Shown piece by piece: positions 44,308 through 53,357 of a DNA stretch of 64,000 bases. Every line of letters starts with the position of its first letter. Position 1 is the stretch's first letter. The notes under the pieces were generated by a model. It worked only from the letters and a program-made list of their open reading frames with translations. It did not search any database and was not told where the DNA came from. The position numbers were made by a program, and so were the translations under genes. Location of the stretch: positions 111,971 through 175,970 of the forward strand of contig JAFWFO010000021.1 in the NCBI GenBank assembly GCA_017515635.1, in the 5' to 3' direction. Origin of the DNA: Selenomonadaceae bacterium (lineage in GTDB: Bacteria; Bacillota; Negativicutes; Selenomonadales; Selenomonadaceae).

Positions 44308-45075
44308 ATGTTTATCGATACGCATTGCCATCTTGAAGACGAAAATTTTTCTGCTGACCGCACAGAGGTCGTCGAACGCGCAAAACTCGCGGGCGTCGCG
44401 CAGATTATAAATTTCGGGAGCACGCACGAAAGTTCCGCCGCTGTCACGGAGCTGACGAAAAATTTTCCCGAACTGTTCGCGGGCGTCGGCATTCACCCCG
44501 AAGAAATTGACGGCTTCGACGAAAATTCTTGCGCACGATTGGCGGAACTTGCCGCCGAAAAAAAAGTTGTCGCTATCGGCGAAATCGGTTTGGATTATCA
44601 CTGGGAAAAAGATTCGGAACGGCGATTGATTCAGCAGAAAATTTTTATCGCGCAACTTGATTTGGCTCGTCAACTGAATTTACCTGTTTGCGTTCACGAC
44701 CGCGACGCTCACGGCGACACGCTGAAAATTTTGCAGACGGAGGCTCGCGGACTTCGCGGCGTGTTGCACTGTTATTCGGGCAGTTTGGAAATTTCGCGGG
44801 AAGTTTTCAAACTCGATTGGTTTATCGGCGTCGACGGTCCTTTGACGTTCAAAAATTCCGCGAAGTTGCCCGAAGTCGTCAAAGCCGCTCCCCGTGACAA
44901 AATTTTGATTGAAACTGACGCGCCGTATCTTGCGCCCGTGCCGTTTCGCGGCAAACGCAACGAGCCGGCTTACGTCGTCGAAGTCGCAAAAAAATTGGCG
45001 GAGCTTCGCGGTGAAACTCTCGAAGAAGTCGCCGCTTACACTTCCGCCAACGCGAAAAATTTATATTCGATTTGA
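44308..45075 (+). CDS. tatD: TatD-family metal-dependent hydrolase
   Basis: A 255-residue TIM-barrel hydrolase. The metal ligands are visible: DTHCHLED at the N-terminus, IGEIGLDYH, VCVHDRDAH, LHCYSGS and LIETDAPYLAPVP. TatD proteins act as 3'-5' deoxyribonucleases in several bacteria. GGAGG precedes the ATG. It runs divergently from the YdcF gene and converges on the maf-upp fusion four bases away. Confidence 0.93.
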   Translation: MFIDTHCHLEDENFSADRTEVVERAKLAGVAQIINFGSTHESSAAVTELTKNFPELFAGVGIHPEEIDGFDENSCARLAELAAEKKVVAIGEIGLDYHWEKDSERRLIQQKIFIAQLDLARQLNLPVCVHDRDAHGDTLKILQTEARGLRGVLHCYSGSLEISREVFKLDWFIGVDGPLTFKNSAKLPEVVKAAPRDKILIETDAPYLAPVPFRGKRNEPAYVVEVAKKLAELRGETLEEVAAYTSANAKNLYSI

Positions 45076-45078
45076 TTG

Positions 45079-46269
45079 TCACAGCGTGGCAAAAATTCTA
45101 TCGCCCGCGTCGCCGAGACCGGGCACAATGTAACATTTTTCGTTCAAACCTTCGTCAATCGCCGCCGTGAAAATTTCAACGTCGGGATGTTCTTCGGAAA
45201 GTTTTTTGATTCCTTGAGGCGTGCTGACAAGACACAGGAAATAAATTTTCTGCGCGCCGCGAGCTTTGAGCAAATCAAGCGCAGCACAAGCACTGCCGCC
45301 CGTGGCAAGCATCGGATCGACGACGAGCAAAATTTTTTCGCCGAAGTTCGGAGGCATCTTGAAATAATATTCGACAGGCTCAAAAGTTTTTTCGTCGCGG
45401 AAAAGTCCGACGTGTCCGATTGAAGCGTCGGGCAAAAGTTTCAGCACGCCGCTTGCCATTGCCAAACCTGCGCGGAGAATCGGCACGACGACAAAATTTT
45501 CTTCGTCCAAAGTTTCTACGGTGCAAACTTTTATCGGCGTTTCGATTTCGACAGAATACGTCTGGAAATTTTGGGCGACTTCGCAAGTCAAGAGCATTGC
45601 AAGTTCGTCAACGAGTTCGCGGAAAAGTTTCGGTGAAGTCCGTTTGTCCCGCAGTTGAGTCAATTTGTGCGAGACGAGCGGATTTTTTACTTGGTGAACA
45701 TTTGGCGTGGTTTCAAGTTTGACGCCAGCTTGTTCAAATAATTTTTTCAGGCGACGAATCGGCAAGCCGACGACGTTCGACCAATCGCCGTGAATTTTTT
45801 CGATAAATTTCGCCGCGCCGCCTTGCAGTGCATACGAGCCGGATTTGTCGAGCGGTTCACCCGTGGCAACGTAATCGCGAATTTCCTGCGCGGTCATATC
45901 GCCGAAAAAAACTGCCGTAACTTCCGCCGCCGTGTAAATTTTTCCGTCCGCAATCAGCGCAAGACCGGTAACGACTTCATGTCGCCTGCCCGAAAGTTGC
46001 TTCAACATTTTTTCTGCGCCTTCGATGCCGTCGGGTTTGCCGAAAATTTTTCCGTCAAGTGAAACGATTGTATCCGCGCCGATGACTACCGCGTCGGGAT
46101 GTTTTGCGGCAACTGCTTGAGCTTTGAGTTTCGCGTTGTTCGTCGCCAAAATTCTTGGAGCGTCCGAACGCTGAATTTCCTGCGCGTCGCTGAGTTCAAC
46201 AACAAAATCGTCGCAGAGTTTCCGCAAAAGTTCCTGTCTGCGCGGTGAGCCTGATGCCAAAATTATCAT
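45079..46269 (-). CDS. Maf nucleotide pyrophosphatase fused to uracil phosphoribosyltransferase
   Basis: One 396-residue open frame encodes two normally separate enzymes. Residues 1-182 are Maf (ILASGSPRRQELL, ATNNAKLKAQAV, IGADTIVSLDGKIFGKP, GDWSNVVGLP), a pyrophosphatase for non-canonical or modified nucleoside triphosphates. After a short linker (about 183-192), residues about 193-396 are Upp (NPLVSHKLTQLRDKRT, VPILRAGLAM, the PRPP loop VVDPMLATGGSA at 317-328, and C-terminal GLGDAGDRIFATL), which makes UMP from uracil and PRPP. No stop, ribosome site or Met lies at the junction, so no second start is evident. The start is the ATG at 46269 with GGAGG upstream. Both domains keep their catalytic motifs. 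I know of no standard Maf-Upp fusion. Confidence 0.93.
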   Translation of the reverse strand: MIILASGSPRRQELLRKLCDDFVVELSDAQEIQRSDAPRILATNNAKLKAQAVAAKHPDAVVIGADTIVSLDGKIFGKPDGIEGAEKMLKQLSGRRHEVVTGLALIADGKIYTAAEVTAVFFGDMTAQEIRDYVATGEPLDKSGSYALQGGAAKFIEKIHGDWSNVVGLPIRRLKKLFEQAGVKLETTPNVHQVKNPLVSHKLTQLRDKRTSPKLFRELVDELAMLLTCEVAQNFQTYSVEIETPIKVCTVETLDEENFVVVPILRAGLAMASGVLKLLPDASIGHVGLFRDEKTFEPVEYYFKMPPNFGEKILLVVDPMLATGGSACAALDLLKARGAQKIYFLCLVSTPQGIKKLSEEHPDVEIFTAAIDEGLNEKCYIVPGLGDAGDRIFATL

Positions 46270-46354
46270 TGCGTGCCTCCAAAAAATCAATCAGTTATAA
46301 AGCCGAATAAAAATTTTTCAGAAATTTGTTTGGATATTTATTTCACTGAGTTAT

Positions 46355-47224
46355 TCAAGAATCCAATTTGAGTTTGGCTTGTGCGGACACGTGTCGATTG
46401 AATCCGACATCTTCCTTACTCATGCCCAAAGCGAAACCGACAAGCTGTTGCAAATGCAAGATTGGGACTTCAGCCCGCGAGTGTACTGCTTCGCGACCTT
46501 CCGGCTCGTACATGTCCAGTTGCATTTGGCACAGCGGGCAAGGCGTCGCCAAAACGGTTGCTTCCGCTCTGAAAGCACTGTCGACGATTTGCCCCGTCAC
46601 TTTCATAACGTCATCTTCCGCCGCAAGTTGAGCATGAAAGCCGCAACATTTTCGCTTGGCGTCGAATTCAACATTTTGCGCGCCCAAAGTCTTAACCAGT
46701 CGTTCAAACGAATGAGGATTTTTTCCGTCTTCGTAGTTCATGATTTCTTGCGGACGAAGAATATGACAACCGTAATAGGCGGCAACTTTCCAATCGCTCA
46801 GCGGCCGAACGATTTGCCCCTTGAGCAATTCGGGATGAGCGTCCAAAACCCAAAGGAAGTGAGTAATTTCGCTCGTGCCTTTGTATTCGTAAGGGTGTCC
46901 GCCTTCCTTGAGAATGCCGTTGATTTTTTCTTTAAGTTTTTCGTCGCTGTCCAGACGGTGTTTCGCCGTGCGCAGTTGCAAAGTACAAGTGTTGCAGACT
47001 GTCATTATCGGCAAGCCTTCATGTTCGGCGATTGAAATGTTGCGTGCGTTGACAGCCAGAGCCGCCAAATCGTTCACGCCTTGAGCATGAGACGCGCCGC
47101 AACACGTCCAATTTTCAATTTCCACAAGCTCAATTCCGATTTTATCGCAGACTTTTTGCATTGAAGTATAGGCTTCGGCCGCCGCGCCTTTGAGAACACA
47201 GCCGGGGAAAAATGCGTACTTCAT
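46355..47224 (-). CDS. mfrE: Fumarate reductase CCG-domain subunit (MfrE/SdhE type)
   Basis: A 289-residue protein with two cysteine-rich CCG motifs: the first around TCCGASHAQG with CNTC, the second around KCCGFHAQLA with CPLC. These are the domains of HdrB and of the E subunit of non-classical succinate:quinone oxidoreductases, which replace the haem b membrane anchor; they bind a special [4Fe-4S] cluster. No membrane helix is seen. It is the last gene of an A-B-E cluster with no cytochrome b, as in the methylmenaquinol:fumarate reductase of Wolinella succinogenes. The start follows the mfrB stop directly. Confidence 0.88.
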   Translation of the reverse strand: MKYAFFPGCVLKGAAAEAYTSMQKVCDKIGIELVEIENWTCCGASHAQGVNDLAALAVNARNISIAEHEGLPIMTVCNTCTLQLRTAKHRLDSDEKLKEKINGILKEGGHPYEYKGTSEITHFLWVLDAHPELLKGQIVRPLSDWKVAAYYGCHILRPQEIMNYEDGKNPHSFERLVKTLGAQNVEFDAKRKCCGFHAQLAAEDDVMKVTGQIVDSAFRAEATVLATPCPLCQMQLDMYEPEGREAVHSRAEVPILHLQQLVGFALGMSKEDVGFNRHVSAQAKLKLDS

Positions 47225-48172
47225 TTATTCGTCCTCCTTTTCCGCCGCTTTGACAATCGCCTTAATCGTTTGGATTTCGGGATTTATCGGGTGCGACTCA
47301 AGCGGATTCATTTTCCCGACGTTCAAGAGGCGCAACGCCATCGGCAGACGCAAGCCCGCCATGATGAAACCTTCGGACTTGATGTTGAGTTTCGACTCGT
47401 CAAGCATACCCGAATCGGAAATGTCGTCGTAAATCGCTTTGGCGTGGTTGCCGCCGACGCCTTGACTAAGCCCCATTTTGAAAGTTGCCTCTTTGAGTTT
47501 TTCGATTGCGCCGGCAGGATCTAAACCTTTGGGACATTTCGCCGTACATTCTTGGCAGTTGAAGCAACGCCACAATCCCGCATCTTGAACGGCCTGCAAA
47601 TGTTCACGGGGACTGCGATTGCGAGAGTCGGCGACCAATCGTTCAGCTTTGACGAAAACAAACGGGTCAAGAAAATCTTTTTCGTTGAGCGTGTTTTTGT
47701 TGCATTCGGAAACGCACGAGCCGCAAAGAATACAGCCCGCATATTTCTTGAACTTGTTAAATTCTTCGGGAGATTGCTTGCAACCGGTTTCAGCCGTGAA
47801 TTCCGGTTTCGGCTCTATCGCCGGTTTTATTTTTTTGAGGCGGTCGTATTTCGGATCCCAGTCGACGATTAAATCACGAATCACGCGGAAATTTCCCAGC
47901 GGCTCAATCGTCAAAGTGTCGGTTTCGTAGCGTTTCAGCAAGTCTTCAACGAGAATTTCGCAGGACAATTCGGCATTGCCGTTGACGCGAACCGCGCAGG
48001 CACCGCAAATGCTTGACCGACAAGAACACGTGAAAGACAACGTCGGATCCAATTTTTCTTTGACGAAGATGAGCGATTCCAAAACCGTCATGCCGACCGA
48101 CACGGGCACGCTGTATCCTTGCACCCATTTTCTGCCTTCAACGAAGCGATGAATTTTCAGCGTAACGTCCAT
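47225..48172 (-). CDS. mfrB: Fumarate reductase iron-sulfur subunit
   Basis: A 315-residue FrdB/SdhB homologue. The N-terminal plant-ferredoxin domain carries the [2Fe-2S] ligands in CSCRSSICGAC; the C-terminal domain has CILCGSCVSECN and CFNCQECTAKCPKGLDP for the [4Fe-4S] and the third cluster. The C-terminus is longer than in classic FrdB (about 240 residues). It carries electrons between the CCG subunit and the flavoprotein. The ATG at 48172 is one base after the mfrA stop, with AGGAAG upstream; the longer frame to 48217 is in mfrA. It should travel with MfrA through the Tat system because it has no signal itself. Confidence 0.93.
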   Translation of the reverse strand: MDVTLKIHRFVEGRKWVQGYSVPVSVGMTVLESLIFVKEKLDPTLSFTCSCRSSICGACAVRVNGNAELSCEILVEDLLKRYETDTLTIEPLGNFRVIRDLIVDWDPKYDRLKKIKPAIEPKPEFTAETGCKQSPEEFNKFKKYAGCILCGSCVSECNKNTLNEKDFLDPFVFVKAERLVADSRNRSPREHLQAVQDAGLWRCFNCQECTAKCPKGLDPAGAIEKLKEATFKMGLSQGVGGNHAKAIYDDISDSGMLDESKLNIKSEGFIMAGLRLPMALRLLNVGKMNPLESHPINPEIQTIKAIVKAAEKEDE

Positions 48173-48173
48173 T

Positions 48174-50015
48174 TCAATACTTCCTTTCCTGCGGCTGATA
48201 TTTCGTGATGACGACATCTTTGTATTCGGTCTGATATTCGCCGTCTCGTTTGAAAATCAAAGTGTGCTTGAGGAAATTTTTGTCGTCGCGCTGAGGGAAG
48301 TCTCGACGCGCATGACCGCCGCGACTTTCTTTGCGGGCAATGGCTCCCTGAACAATGCTGTGCGACACTTGCAACAGATTGCCCAATTCGACGTACTGTT
48401 CAAAGGCGGTGTTGTAGACGTGAGAATTGTCGCCGACGTAGCAATGTTCGTATTCTTTCTCCAAAGCAGTGAGTTCCTGCGCCGCCTCTTGGAGCAATTT
48501 TTCTTCGCGGTAAACGCCGGCTTTGTACCACATTGTATTGACCATGGCGTCGCGAATTTCGGGCACGGTTTTTCCTGCCGAACGCGGTCGGTTTGTAACC
48601 TCTTCAAATTTTTCTTTCCACGCCGCGCAGTCGTTTGCCAATTTTTCTTGATTGCCTTCGTACTTGTGTTCTTTGGCATAAGCCGCCGCGCCGTCGCCCG
48701 CCGCATGTCCGAAAACCAAAACTTCCGAGAGAGAATTTGCTCCGAGACGATTTGCGCCGTGAATCGAAACGCAACTGCATTCGCCCGCCACAAAGACGCC
48801 GGGCACGCGTGAAGCTCCGGTATGAAAATCAGCCATTTCAAGGCCGCCCATCGAATAATGGCAAGTCGGGCTGACGGGCACCATTTCTTTGGTGATGTCG
48901 ACGCCCGCAAATCTTAGCGACAAGTCGTAAACTTGTCCGAGACGTTCGTGAATGAGTTCAGGTGATATGTGGCGGAAATCCAGATAAACACCGGCGTGAA
49001 TTCCTTCGCCGATGCCTCTGCCTTCCAAAATTTCTGTGGCAATGCCGCGAGCAACTATGTCACGCGTCGCAAGTTCCTTTTTCTCCGGCGCGTATTTGCC
49101 CATGAATCTTTCGCCGTTCTTGTTGATGAGCAAAGCACCTTCCGCACGGCTTGACTCGGAAAGCAAAACCCCGTTGGCTGACAGTCCCGTCGGATGAAAC
49201 TGCACCATTTCGGGGTCTTTGAAGGGAATACCGATATTCATGCCCGCGACAATTCCGTCGCCCGTTGAGCTGTAAGGATTTGACGTGCGAATCCAATAAA
49301 CTCGCCCGTAACCGCCCGTTGCGATTATGACGGTTTTCGCCGCCACGCCGAGCAAATTTCCGCTACGCATGTCCATTGCAATAACGCCGTTGAGTTTGTC
49401 GCCGTCCATGCTGATTTCAAGCATTTGACATTCGGAAATAAAATCAATGTCATTTTTCAAGCATTGTTCAAAAAGCGCGTGAACCATGGCATGACCGGCG
49501 CGGTCTTCAAAATACGAGGCACGCGGGTGCGACGAACCGCCCATTTTGCGTTGATGAAAACACCCGTCGGCTTGACGATTGTACGGGTAGCCCATGAAGT
49601 CCATTTCGTAAATATTTTTGCCCGCACGTTCGGCGAAGTATTCGACGGCATCTTGATCGCAAAGATAATCGCCGCCCTTTGTCGTGTCAAACATGTGCGA
49701 TTCGACGCTGTCTTCGGGGTCGGTGACGCCCGTGACGCCGTTCATGCCGCCTTGTGCCATTGTGGAAGCTGAGCGCGTCGGTACCAGTTTCGTCATTACG
49801 GCAACTTTAAGATTTTTATCTTCAGCCGCCGCCAAAGCCGCTCGCATTCCCGCGCCGCCACTTCCGATTATCAAAACGTCGTAAGTGACTTCGCCCGTCT
49901 TCACTTTCTTTGGAACATTGTTGCCGTTCCAAGTGAGGTACGAACCTGTCGCCAGCACGACCCCCGCCGCCGTCATGCCTTTGATAAAAGTTCGCCGTGA
50001 AATTTCTTTCGACAT
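48174..50015 (-). CDS. mfrA: Fumarate reductase flavoprotein subunit with Tat signal
   Basis: A 613-residue FrdA/SdhA homologue. It starts with a twin-arginine signal (SRRTFIKGMTAAGVVLATGS), so the catalytic side should be outside the cytoplasmic membrane. FAD fold: VLIIGSGGAGMRAALAAAE; active-site regions HPTGLSANG, SESSRAEGALL, TCHYSMGGLE and RLGANSLSEVLVFG are intact. The His that carries covalent FAD in most family members is Ala: the motif reads TRSASTMAQGG (A83). With mfrB and mfrE it forms a methylmenaquinol:fumarate reductase-like complex using fumarate as electron acceptor. The start is the ATG at 50015 with GGGGGT seven bases upstream. Confidence 0.92.
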   Translation of the reverse strand: MSKEISRRTFIKGMTAAGVVLATGSYLTWNGNNVPKKVKTGEVTYDVLIIGSGGAGMRAALAAAEDKNLKVAVMTKLVPTRSASTMAQGGMNGVTGVTDPEDSVESHMFDTTKGGDYLCDQDAVEYFAERAGKNIYEMDFMGYPYNRQADGCFHQRKMGGSSHPRASYFEDRAGHAMVHALFEQCLKNDIDFISECQMLEISMDGDKLNGVIAMDMRSGNLLGVAAKTVIIATGGYGRVYWIRTSNPYSSTGDGIVAGMNIGIPFKDPEMVQFHPTGLSANGVLLSESSRAEGALLINKNGERFMGKYAPEKKELATRDIVARGIATEILEGRGIGEGIHAGVYLDFRHISPELIHERLGQVYDLSLRFAGVDITKEMVPVSPTCHYSMGGLEMADFHTGASRVPGVFVAGECSCVSIHGANRLGANSLSEVLVFGHAAGDGAAAYAKEHKYEGNQEKLANDCAAWKEKFEEVTNRPRSAGKTVPEIRDAMVNTMWYKAGVYREEKLLQEAAQELTALEKEYEHCYVGDNSHVYNTAFEQYVELGNLLQVSHSIVQGAIARKESRGGHARRDFPQRDDKNFLKHTLIFKRDGEYQTEYKDVVITKYQPQERKY

Positions 50016-50140
50016 ATTCAAACCCCCTACTTTTTATTTGCAGGCGATGTTTGTCACAAGGTGATCTTAAGTTGCCACGGTCACGATGCGCTCGCCTTTA
50101 ATTCCGTGCTTCAAATTTTCCGTAACCGGAGAAGTATTAC

Positions 50141-50170
50141 AGATTACGCATTCCTAATTCCTAATTGTCC
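50141..50170. repeat. TTAGGAATTAGGA-type element at the end of the GGDEF gene
   Basis: attacgcattcctaattcct followed by aattgtcc. Read on the minus strand it holds the TAG stop of the response-regulator gene (50161) followed by gaattaggaatgcgtaat. It joins the unit of the 14-bp tandem repeat at 42973 with that of the hairpin elements. Confidence 0.65.
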
Positions 50171-51477
50171 ATTACTGCCCACTCGTGCGCGAAGTAGAAA
50201 TTTTTGCTTGCGTCGAAATTGCCCCACGCTTCGGCAAGACGCCCGACCGCGCCCGTTACGTCGTGATGCCCGTCGGTGTTCGTGAGCATTGCCAAAAATT
50301 GATTGCGCCCGTTTTTCGTAATGACATCGCCGCGCCGTAAAGTTTCATGCAGGCAGTCAATAAATTGTTCGCTGGCGTCCTTGAGCGAAATTTTTTCGTC
50401 GTCGCCTTTCTTTTTGAGCGAAAACAGCAAAACACAAATCGTCTTGCCGTAACCGCCGCGAGTCCGCTTGAGGAACCTGTAGACGATTCGGAAACTTTCA
50501 AACGGCAGGACATACGCGCCGGGCTCTTTGTTGCGTTCGCCCAAAATCATTTCAATCTGCGCGAGCGTGACGACGGTTTCGACTTCCTCTTCGTGCGTGT
50601 CGTCGGTGAAAATGCTGTAACCGTGCTTGCCGTTTTGCTTGACGGTGTACAACGCCTTGTCCGCCATTTTGTAAAGTTCTTTAAAATCGGTGCCGCTGTT
50701 CGGGACGAGGACGCAACCGATTGACGCGCCGAGCGGAATGTTCATGTCTTCGCCCATCAATTTTTTTGCGGCCTCGGTGATTTTTTCGTTGATAAATTGC
50801 GTCTTGAGCGAAATGGCGGTTTCTTCCTGCACGCCGTCACAAAAGGCAACAAATTCGTCGCCGCCCATGCGCCCGATTAAATCCGACGAACGAAACGCCG
50901 CCCGCAAAATGTCCGCGAAGGCAATCAAAATTTTGTCGCCCATTGCGTGCCCGTGAATGTCGTTGACGAGCTTGAAACTGTCCAAGTCAATCATCATCAG
51001 CGAGCCGACTGAACGCTTACAAATTTTGGCGAGTTCTTCTTCGGACGCCGCCTTGTTGAAAAGTCCCGTGAGCGCGTCCGTCGTGGAAGTTTTTTTCAAG
51101 TCTTGAATCTGCCCGACAGTCTGCAATGTGTTCGCGATTCGCCGCAACATAATTTCGGGCTTGAACGGTTTATGCAGAAAATCCAACGCGCCGTTGTCTA
51201 AACCTTGACTTTCGGTTTCTTCACTGTCATCGCCCGTCAAAAAGATAAACGGAATTTTTTTGTGGAATTCGCTCTGCAAAGCAATCTGCAAGTCAAAACC
51301 AGTCATGTCCGGCAAACGAAAATCCGAAATAATCATGTCGGGCAATTCCTTGCGGTAAACTTCGAGAGCTTCTTTGGCTGAGCCTGCGCCGACAGTTTCG
51401 TAATCGTTTTGTTCCAAGACGAAAGCCGTCATTTCGCGCCCGACTTCCATATCGTCGACAATCAAAATTTTTTTCAT
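50161..51477 (-). CDS. Response regulator with GGDEF domain
   Basis: A 438-residue REC-GGDEF protein. The receiver (1-120) is intact: acidic pair DD at 8-9, phosphoacceptor in IISDFRLPDM (D52), Thr in FLTGDD and Lys in HKPFKPE. The GGDEF domain (about 130-300) has the active-site sequence GRMGGDEF near residue 205, so it should make c-di-GMP. A further 130 residues at the C-terminus are a domain I do not recognise, possibly a degenerate second GGDEF. The ribosome site is GGGGG before the ATG. A TATAAT at 51523-51528 may be its own -10. Its receiver is the paralogue of the pseudo-receiver gene just upstream. Confidence 0.9.
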   Translation of the reverse strand: MKKILIVDDMEVGREMTAFVLEQNDYETVGAGSAKEALEVYRKELPDMIISDFRLPDMTGFDLQIALQSEFHKKIPFIFLTGDDSEETESQGLDNGALDFLHKPFKPEIMLRRIANTLQTVGQIQDLKKTSTTDALTGLFNKAASEEELAKICKRSVGSLMMIDLDSFKLVNDIHGHAMGDKILIAFADILRAAFRSSDLIGRMGGDEFVAFCDGVQEETAISLKTQFINEKITEAAKKLMGEDMNIPLGASIGCVLVPNSGTDFKELYKMADKALYTVKQNGKHGYSIFTDDTHEEEVETVVTLAQIEMILGERNKEPGAYVLPFESFRIVYRFLKRTRGGYGKTICVLLFSLKKKGDDEKISLKDASEQFIDCLHETLRRGDVITKNGRNQFLAMLTNTDGHHDVTGAVGRLAEAWGNFDASKNFYFAHEWAVMDN

Positions 51478-51558: not shown

Positions 51559-51942
51559 TTATTCCTGCGAGCGAAGACGTTCGGCGAACCACAAAACTTT
51601 TTCGAGGCGGCACAAAAGAATTTCCGGCGCGAACGGGTGACGAATAAAATCCCATGCGCCGCTTTTTAAAGCTTCGGATTCGGTGTCGCTGCCGTTGTCG
51701 CTGCCCGTCATCACGAACGGAATTATTTCGCCGAATTCGGCCTGCAACTTGTTCAGAAGTTCCGCGCCCGTCATGTCAGCTAAACGAAATCGCGACAACA
51801 CCAAGTCGGGACGAGTTTCGCGAAAAATTTTCAAAGCTTCTTCACCGGTCGACGCGCAGATTGTTTCGTACATGGTCGACAAAATTATTTCCGTGAATTG
51901 GCGCGTGACTTCCACGCCGTCAACGAGCAAAATTTTTTTCAT
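51559..51942 (-). CDS. Degenerate single-domain receiver (pseudo-receiver)
   Basis: A 127-residue stand-alone receiver-fold protein, clearly paralogous to the receiver of the next gene over its whole length. The phosphorylation pocket is lost. The acidic pair is D8-G9 instead of Asp-Asp, the phosphoacceptor position is Arg (VLSRFRLADM, R51) where the paralogue has Asp, and the conserved Lys is His (IRHPFAPE). The Thr of VMTGSD is kept. It cannot be phosphorylated in the usual way and may act as a constitutive partner or decoy. The ATG overlaps the rlmD stop by four bases (ATGA), with GGAGG inside rlmD. Confidence 0.87.
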   Translation of the reverse strand: MKKILLVDGVEVTRQFTEIILSTMYETICASTGEEALKIFRETRPDLVLSRFRLADMTGAELLNKLQAEFGEIIPFVMTGSDNGSDTESEALKSGAWDFIRHPFAPEILLCRLEKVLWFAERLRSQE

Positions 51943-53357
51943 GGCTTAACCTCCGTGCGGAAAATTTGTGCAACCGATTCAACGTGCGACGTAAACGGGA
52001 ACATGTCCACGGGCTGAATTTTTTTCGTGCGGTAACCGAGTTCGTTTAAAATCGCCAAATCGCGGGCAAGCGTGGCGGGATTGCACGAGACGTAAATTAT
52101 TTTTTCGGGACGCATGGCGGCGAAAGTTTCCAAAACTTTTTTGTCGCAACCTGCGCGGGGCGGATCGACAACAACCACGTCCGCGACAATTCCGGCGTTG
52201 AAAAGTTTCGGCAAAATTTTCACGGCGTCGCCGACGATAAATTCGGCGTTGCGGATATTGTTTTCGCGGGCATTTTTTTTCGCGTCGTTAATCGCCGAAG
52301 AAACAACTTCCACGCCGAAAACTTTTCGCGCTTTTTTGGCAAGAAACAGCGAAATTGTTCCCGTGCCGCAGTAAGCGTCGATAACCGTTTCGCGCCCGTG
52401 CAGTTCGCAAAAATCCAACGCAGTCTTGTAAAGAACTTCAGCCTGAGCGGTGTTGACTTGGAAAAACGAACGCGCCGAAATGTTGAACTTCAGCCCGCCA
52501 ATTTTGTCGTGAATCGTCGGCTTGCCGAATAAAATTTTCGTGTCGCGTCCGAGAATGACGTTGTTGCGAAAAGTTTGCACGTTCTGTTGAATGCTTGTCA
52601 CGTCCGGCAATTCATTTCGCAAGGCGCGGACAAAATTTTTCGCGGCGGGAAATTTTTCGGTTGCGGTGACGAGTACAGCCATCAATTCGCCGTCACAGCC
52701 GACGCGCCCCATCACGTGCCGCAGAAAACCTCTGTGCGTGTCTTCGTCGTAAGGTTGCAGATTAAATTTTTGAGCGACTTTTTTGACGGCGTTTAAAATT
52801 CTGTCGTTGCCCGCATTTTGAATCAGACAAGAATTCGTGTCGATAATTTTATGACTGCCGCGAGCGTAGCAACCGACGCGCAGATTTTTGCCGACGGGGA
52901 ATTGCATTTTGTTTCGATAACGCAGGGGATTTTCCATGCCGAGCGTTTCAGAAATTGCCACGCCGTTTAATTTTCCGATACGTTCAATCGCGTCGACGAC
53001 CTGTTGACGTTTCCATTTGAGTTGCGCGGAATAATTCATGTGTTGAAGTTGACAGCCGCCGCAAGTTTCATACAACGGGCAAAAAGGTTCCGCACGCTCC
53101 GAACTTTTTTCGACGACTTCGACGAGCCGACCGACCGCGTAATTTTTTTTGACGGTTTCAATTTCGACGTTGACAATTTCGTTGGGGAGCGCGCCTTCAA
53201 CAAAAACGGCGAGCCCGTCGAATTTGCCGACGCCTTCGCCGTTTGAGCCGAGTCCGCTAATTTCAATTAGGAATTTGGAATTAGGAGTTAGGAGTTGTGA
53301 TTTTCCGTCTTCATTCCTCATTCCTAATTTCTCATTCCAAATTGTTTTTTTGTGCAT
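51939..53357 (-). CDS. rlmD: 23S rRNA (uracil-5-)-methyltransferase, RlmD/RumA family
   Basis: A 472-residue SAM-dependent RNA m5U methyltransferase. An N-terminal TRAM domain (about residues 28-90) is followed by the [4Fe-4S] ligands in CPLYETCGGCQLQHM, a central domain, the SAM fold with IDAYCGTGTISLFLA, DPPRAGCDKK, and the catalytic YVSCNPATLARD near the C-terminus. It could be RlmD or the closely related RlmCD. The first 27 or so residues are unusual: they are encoded by a TTAGGAATTAGGA-type hairpin repeat (53264-53340). The ATG at 53357 lies inside ribF with only a weak ribosome site. No better in-frame start lies between the repeat and the TRAM domain. Confidence 0.92.
   Translation of the reverse strand: MHKKTIWNEKLGMRNEDGKSQLLTPNSKFLIEISGLGSNGEGVGKFDGLAVFVEGALPNEIVNVEIETVKKNYAVGRLVEVVEKSSERAEPFCPLYETCGGCQLQHMNYSAQLKWKRQQVVDAIERIGKLNGVAISETLGMENPLRYRNKMQFPVGKNLRVGCYARGSHKIIDTNSCLIQNAGNDRILNAVKKVAQKFNLQPYDEDTHRGFLRHVMGRVGCDGELMAVLVTATEKFPAAKNFVRALRNELPDVTSIQQNVQTFRNNVILGRDTKILFGKPTIHDKIGGLKFNISARSFFQVNTAQAEVLYKTALDFCELHGRETVIDAYCGTGTISLFLAKKARKVFGVEVVSSAINDAKKNARENNIRNAEFIVGDAVKILPKLFNAGIVADVVVVDPPRAGCDKKVLETFAAMRPEKIIYVSCNPATLARDLAILNELGYRTKKIQPVDMFPFTSHVESVAQIFRTEVKP
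53264..53340. repeat. TTAGGAATTAGGA-type hairpin repeat inside the rlmD 5' end
   Basis: caattaggaatttggaatta, then ggagttaggagttg, faces cattcctcattcctaatttc with tcattccaaattg. The arms are imperfectly complementary. It encodes the N-terminal extension of RlmD, and its outer end holds the last codons and stop of ribF. Confidence 0.72.

Follow-up and report, generated by a model that had tools for sequence, protein, structure and literature searches.

The window analyzed here is a stretch of 64,000 nucleotides from a Selenomonadaceae bacterium (contig JAFWFO010000021.1, positions 111,971 to 175,970). Its minus strand carries maf::upp, a single open reading frame (ORF) that encodes a Maf pyrophosphatase domain followed by a complete uracil phosphoribosyltransferase (UPRTase; Upp). 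Numbered from the first nucleotide of the window, the features of the fused gene are:

45079..46269, minus strand: fused maf::upp ORF, 396 codons plus stop, from translation; the frame is open in five genomes of the genus, one copy being truncated by the end of its contig
46276..46280, minus strand: Shine-Dalgarno sequence GGAGG for the Maf start, duplex −9.3 kcal/mol
45730..46266, minus strand: Maf domain of the YhdE (pyrimidine) type, residues 2–180, from Pfam and aligned signature residues
45703..45726, minus strand: linker, residues 182–189, just before the site of the upp start codon in unfused relatives
45085..45687, minus strand: Upp domain, residues 195–395, with the phosphoribosyl pyrophosphate (PRPP) loop VVDPMLATGGSA and the C-terminal GLGDAGDR, from Pfam, NCBIfam TIGR01091 and structure matches

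Translation of the minus-strand frame at 45079–46269 revealed no internal stop codon. The start codon is the ATG at 46269; because GGAGG sits 6 nt before it, an upstream TTG start, giving a mechanical ORF of 403 residues, was set aside. The predicted product is approximately 43 kDa, with a spacing of about 9 residues between Maf and Upp, and the linker occupies the stretch where the Shine-Dalgarno sequence of upp lies in unfused relatives. The genome itself (a draft, 86.9% complete) yielded a single Maf match and a single UPRTase match, both corresponding to the fused gene. A preliminary description of this DNA had proposed a single-chain Maf–Upp fusion, and the proposal holds: one open 396-codon frame encodes both domains in complete form, and the motifs quoted in support are present in the translation. 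The fusion is confirmed as real and common to one small clade of uncultured bacteria, which belongs to a rumen genus including Quinella sp. 1Q5, and the placement in Negativicutes given at the outset is therefore right.

The Maf half scores 186.6 bits against Pfam PF02545 (cut-off 27) and 167.2 bits against NCBIfam TIGR00172 (cut-off 117.15). Alignment locates the Maf signature S-R-E-K-D-K at S8, R11, E31, K49, D66 and K78, and the YhdE subfamily triad R-T-Q at R10, T67 and Q149, both as defined for YhdE-type Maf proteins (PMC3899018). E31 was placed by alignment to B. subtilis Maf (1ex2), the alignment to YhdE 4p0e (an E33A mutant) being shifted by two there. The Upp half scores 243 bits against PF14681 (cut-off 27) and 268.1 bits against TIGR01091 (cut-off 208.35), covering model positions 1–206 of 207. 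DPMLATGGS (residues 318–326) and GLGDAGDR (residues 384–391), which we take to be the PRPP and uracil loops, respectively, are unchanged in the aligned fused rows. An AlphaFold model built from a 79-row alignment, with a mean predicted local distance difference test (pLDDT) of 87.5 and a predicted template modeling score (pTM) of 0.59, agrees over whole domains with solved structures of Maf and of Upp. The join is modeled as a helix (171–181), a loop (182–190) and a strand (191–193).

Comparison with unfused relatives indicates how Upp is likely to be translated. In five loci where maf and upp are adjacent and separate, upp starts with ATG and the duplex of the 22 nt before it with the anti-Shine-Dalgarno sequence has energies of −7.2 to −10.1 kcal/mol. 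For the corresponding nucleotides, the values are +0.1 to +0.4 kcal/mol in the five fused loci, where the Upp methionine is replaced by asparagine and the Maf starts retain −6.4 to −10.5 kcal/mol. Across codons 150–224 of the window gene, the only in-frame ATG, GTG or TTG codons are TTG169 and TTG203, with duplexes of −2.7 and +0.7 kcal/mol (median within the gene, −2.0), and the next in-frame ATG, codon 225, lies inside Upp. We found, as had been stated earlier, no usable internal start at the join: the upp ATG and its Shine-Dalgarno sequence are both gone in 5/5 fused loci, and because of this loss Upp is very probably made solely as part of the fusion.

Two proteins, with initiation near codon 174 giving free Upp beside the fusion, appear a distinctly improbable outcome. 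The protein collection contains a 223-residue Upp on the window contig (P0006) that begins at residue 174; another fused protein, P0004, has methionine at this position, and the codon is TTG in four of the five loci read as DNA. In the window itself, however, it is CTG, and a strong Shine-Dalgarno sequence is absent both before codon 174 and at the old upp start in all five fused loci. Pairing between the anti-Shine-Dalgarno sequence and the nucleotides ahead of codon 174 is weak in each of the five (−1.7 to −3.3 kcal/mol), the values being ordinary for the gene. For comparison, unlinked upp starts, sampled in 4 of 27 rows, gave −3.8 to −10.7 kcal/mol, the one at −3.8 having a weak Shine-Dalgarno sequence. 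Because P0006 starts at a CTG codon, automatic annotation may hide the fusion.

We detected the fused frame in five of the genus’s 66 draft genomes (G000, the source of the window; G020; G100; G101; G104). The G104 copy breaks off after residue 275, where its contig ends; this row was accordingly used for the Maf tree and the junction table, but not for the Upp tree or the ratios of nonsynonymous to synonymous substitution rates (dN/dS). Four protein clusters (P0002–P0005) carry both domains at 79–94% identity across 100% of the length; they are not wholly independent of the five genomes, the Maf rows of P0003 and G101 being identical and their Upp rows nearly so. Chance is excluded, given that the frame recurs in these clusters and in four genomes of the genus besides that of the window. 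That an assembly artefact joined two genes has a negligible probability. As far as record titles show, the genus is represented by draft metagenome assemblies, but the same frame with the same neighbors recurs in separate assemblies: JAFUYE010000049.1 from roe deer rumen (the fused contig of G100), a bin of SRR8387719 and two more genomes; the frame is also present in P0002–P0005.

We searched for the fusion beyond this clade. A whole-chain protein search scored the 7996 candidates sharing most words, and we considered the best 120 of 7896 matches. Below P0002–P0005, the matches listed were P0006 from the window contig and then Upp proteins without Maf, except P0021, which has Maf. A search with the Maf part (best 120 of 1304 matches) listed only P0002–P0005 as carrying PF14681. 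The architecture Maf PF02545 plus UPRTase PF14681, which the preliminary description had singled out as a check, is represented among the matches listed by P0002–P0005 only, and neither search listed a distant, independent Maf–Upp fusion. A search of 380 genomes from 102 genera of the class, with at most 4 candidates scored per genome, showed no fusion outside the genus, where the best match (1.1e-79) was over Upp alone. G001, G005 and G055 gave no match to P0001. No description of a Maf–Upp fusion was found among the papers that the literature searches listed, and the words ‘Maf’, ‘uracil’ and ‘pyrimidine’ are absent from the main text of the Quinella genome paper (PMC9585023). The suggestion that the pairing is new stands as far as these searches reach; it is a new domain architecture made of two known enzymes.

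Five sister genomes carry maf and upp as separate genes that touch head to tail, in three junction forms: a 4-nt ATGA overlap (G040, G026 and G102), a 17-nt overlap (G015), and a maf stop codon TAA that abuts the upp ATG in frame (G023). rtcB lies upstream of maf in G015, G040, G102 and G023, and a PRC-barrel gene follows upp in G015, G040 and G026; in 12 genomes, maf adjoins the same PRC-barrel gene without upp. The fused rows form one clade both in the Upp tree (support 100/97; 8/40 rows) and in the Maf tree (support 100/99; 9/62 rows), the genomes that yielded no maf (G002, G011, G017, G041, G099 and G103) being represented in the Upp tree only. Rows with adjacent genes are spread over the Maf tree, and the fused-or-adjacent state takes 5 changes on the Maf tree and 2 on the Upp tree. 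The simplest reading starts from an old maf–upp pair, which most lineages then lost or separated and which underwent a single fusion; adjacency is not proved by the trees to be the ancestral state.

Measured from the conserved Maf Gly to the Upp His/Arg/Gln, the junction spans 27 or 30 nt in fused genes, 28 or 29 nt in overlapping genes, and 30 nt with the stop in G023. The frames may have been joined either by a net frameshift at the ATGA overlap or by stop loss at an in-frame TAA-ATG, as in G023; we aligned the junction DNA, and the divergence is too large to choose between these mutations. Since the genes already touch in the genus, only a small change was needed. Subunits of heteromeric complexes are enriched among overlapping gene pairs (PMC10666635), an enrichment that fits a pair possibly already working together and proves nothing here. 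The genus displays separate, touching and fused genes as living states, with the loss of the second gene’s ribosome site visible, and these states make translational coupling and fusion directly comparable.

Both halves are conserved within the fused clade. Across six pairs, dN/dS was 0.07–0.17 for Maf and 0.14–0.37 for Upp. Where the unfused rows of the genus show at least 97% conservation, 67/70 positions in Maf and 42/44 in Upp are unchanged across all fused rows. The exceptions are I63V (three fused rows), G123S (two) and L174M (one) in Maf, and A330T and I392T (one row each) in Upp, I392 adjoining the GLGDAGDR loop. Taken together, the completeness of both domains, the retained signature residues, the low dN/dS and the single clade in both trees suggest that the maf::upp product is probably a true bifunctional enzyme, a salvage and sanitation protein producing uridine monophosphate (UMP).

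Known activities of the separate enzymes indicate what each half might contribute. YhdE-type Maf proteins hydrolyze the triphosphates of deoxythymidine (dTTP), uridine (UTP), cytidine (CTP), 5-methyluridine (m5UTP), pseudouridine (pseudo-UTP) and 5-methylcytidine (m5CTP), with a preference for m5UTP, and overexpression of YhdE in E. coli leads to more deoxythymidine monophosphate (dTMP) and UMP (PMC3899018). Upp makes UMP from uracil and PRPP (PMC3570474). In the bifunctional enzyme, the Maf half would hydrolyze UTP, dTTP and 5-modified UTPs to monophosphates and the Upp half would convert uracil and PRPP to UMP, so that both would yield monophosphates and pyrophosphate. If Upp is made only inside the 43-kDa chain, the two activities would be present one to one and held together. 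The benefit may lie in having salvage and sanitation in one place: Upp would supply the nucleotide pool with uracil and, probably, with certain analogues of it released by RNA digestion, and Maf would remove faulty or excess uridine triphosphates. Coupling of pool cleaning to uracil salvage, as the preliminary description had it, is a reasonable reading of the sequence. The physiological role of the Maf family has been described as still not clear (PMC4319933), and a naturally tethered Maf–Upp pair offers a physical clue to the purpose of Maf, with the prediction that Maf acts on the uridine pool fed by Upp.

A more specific variant, which we regard as unlikely, is a self-proofreading salvage enzyme, in which Upp would admit uracil and analogues from digested RNA and the tethered Maf would destroy the resulting aberrant UTPs (m5UTP, thio-UTP or halo-UTP). 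Upp is the entry point for 4-thiouracil. Uptake of 4-thiouracil by the salvage pathway has been reported (PMC12210855).

Rather less probable than a bifunctional enzyme, though deserving serious consideration, is a neutral fusion, in which a touching operon pair lost its stop or its frame by accident and the halves work as before, the joining itself being without function. The genus already has touching genes in all three junction forms, upp is patchy, and residues fixed specifically in the fused clade amount to none in Upp and only five in Maf, all of which favors accidental joining. Against this, the fused frame has persisted through divergence to 79–94% identity, with synonymous divergence (dS) of 0.29–0.61, length changes at the junction are limited to multiples of three, and the independent upp start has also been lost in the clade.

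Several further observations weigh against the bifunctional enzyme. Fusion of adjacent genes can be neutral. In two AlphaFold runs (pTM 0.57 and 0.59), the placing of Maf and Upp on each other is not confident, and the model becomes less certain over residues 371–396, the stretch with the uracil loop (block means of 71, 51 and 46), confidence being low for 381–396. In 6/6 pairs, Upp has the higher dN/dS of the two domains, and 29 of the 66 genomes lack a upp match of at least 70 bits (37 have one; other tallies gave 41/66 with a threshold of E ≤ 0.001 and 38 above the cut-off). Selection for uracil salvage may therefore be weak. Permeases of the nucleobase family PF00860 occur in 58 of the 66 genomes, many of them without upp. 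The P0006 start, the codons found at position 174 and the weak Shine-Dalgarno sequence of one unlinked upp, all described above, belong here as well.

Regarding individual genomes, G048 (99% complete) has kept maf and is among those without a upp match of at least 70 bits. We also considered a link to a uracil permease. PF00860, a family that includes xanthine permeases too, is present with or without upp, and so neither supports nor refutes such a link.

The genes surrounding maf::upp in the window are:

44308..45075, plus strand: TatD-family nuclease, convergent neighbor, kept in 4/4 fused loci whose downstream DNA extends far enough (window, L003, L190 and L199)
46358..50021, minus strand: fumarate-reductase-like frdA, frdB and frdE-like genes, located between maf::upp and the GGDEF gene, an arrangement seen in the window alone
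50161..51477, minus strand: response regulator with a GGDEF domain, upstream in 5/5 fused loci
51559..51942, minus strand: short response-regulator-like ORF of 127 residues, upstream in 5/5 fused loci
51939..53357, minus strand: rlmD (rumA), 23S rRNA 5-methyluridine (m5U) methyltransferase family, TIGR00479 517.8 bits against a cut-off of 183.55, present in 5/5 fused loci

The ends of tatD and the fused gene are 3 nt apart. The frd genes had no match in the available stretches of the other four fused loci; they resemble 8-methylmenaquinol:fumarate reductase genes below NCBIfam cut-offs, and FrdA has a twin-arginine-like start below the Pfam cut-off. The short response regulator overlaps rlmD by 4 nt in the window. 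rlmD, the short regulator, the GGDEF regulator and maf::upp occur together in the window and in L003, L190, L199 and L204, a grouping absent from the 10 unfused relatives checked. In those relatives, neither this GGDEF gene nor tatD nor frd was matched in the stretch around rlmD (4.8–8.5 kb), and tatD is located elsewhere. Among 14 unfused genomes in which rlmD was sought, two have it on the same contig as maf, approximately 18 kb away in G102 and 13 kb away in G013.

This neighborhood raises the possibility, doubtful in our estimation, of an RNA-modification clean-up cluster, in which RlmD would put m5U in rRNA, Maf would destroy the m5UTP arising from its turnover and Upp would recycle uracil. 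The presence of rlmD upstream in every fused locus is consistent with it, as are the 10 unfused relatives, where rlmD has neither the GGDEF gene nor tatD around it and maf is on another contig or ~18 kb away (G102), the existence of Maf and RlmD in single chains (P0158 and P0198), and the m5UTP preference of YhdE-type Maf (PMC3899018). On the other hand, two regulator genes, plus frdABE in the window, separate rlmD from maf::upp, and the neighborhood is limited to one clade and may be due to chance. It also counts against the cluster that we know of no enzyme that would split m5UMP to the base for Upp. A related route, pseudouridine recycling (Maf acting on pseudo-UTP, PsuG releasing uracil and Upp forming UMP), was rejected, PF04227 (PsuG) being found in 0/66 draft genomes of the genus in a search whose control was positive in 3/14 genomes, E. 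coli among them; this lack likewise counts against the cluster. The link between Maf and RNA m5U is worth testing, though other genes lie between rlmD and maf::upp.

Compared with known systems, the free pyrophosphatases of the YhdE subfamily (E. coli YhdE and B. subtilis Maf) are single proteins, whereas here a second enzyme is in the same chain. The Upp half resembles bacterial Upp (B. caldolyticus, 1I5E) in being a whole domain above the TIGR01091 cut-off with the PRPP and uracil loops kept; unlike it, it is preceded by a Maf domain, has no starting methionine and has lost its own start and ribosome site. Upp is also joined in one chain, according to Pfam annotation, to the PF00860 permease (P0077, P0079, P0081 and others), to RpiB PF02502 (P0047, P0092 and P0117) and to serine hydroxymethyltransferase (SHMT) PF00464 (P0100), with Maf in none of those rows. 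Further Maf combinations by the same annotation are those with a phosphatase of the haloacid dehalogenase (HAD) type (P0141 and P0142), PF04365 (P0021) and a methyltransferase (P0209). Human ASMTL likewise carries a YhdE-like Maf at its N-terminus and a different enzyme-like domain in the same chain (PMC3899018), but it is eukaryotic and its partner is a predicted methyltransferase; in maf::upp, the C-terminal half is the UPRTase, and no methyltransferase family was found at E ≤ 0.001 in Pfam or NCBIfam. A parallel in layout is provided by P0158 (646 residues, Acidobacteria) and P0198 (640 residues), single chains in which a complete N-terminal Maf precedes another complete enzyme of uridine chemistry, RlmD. 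Their partner is an rRNA m5U methyltransferase, of the 23S rRNA m5U1939 family, and they are presumably of separate origin for this reason; these chains fit the reported m5UTP preference of Maf.
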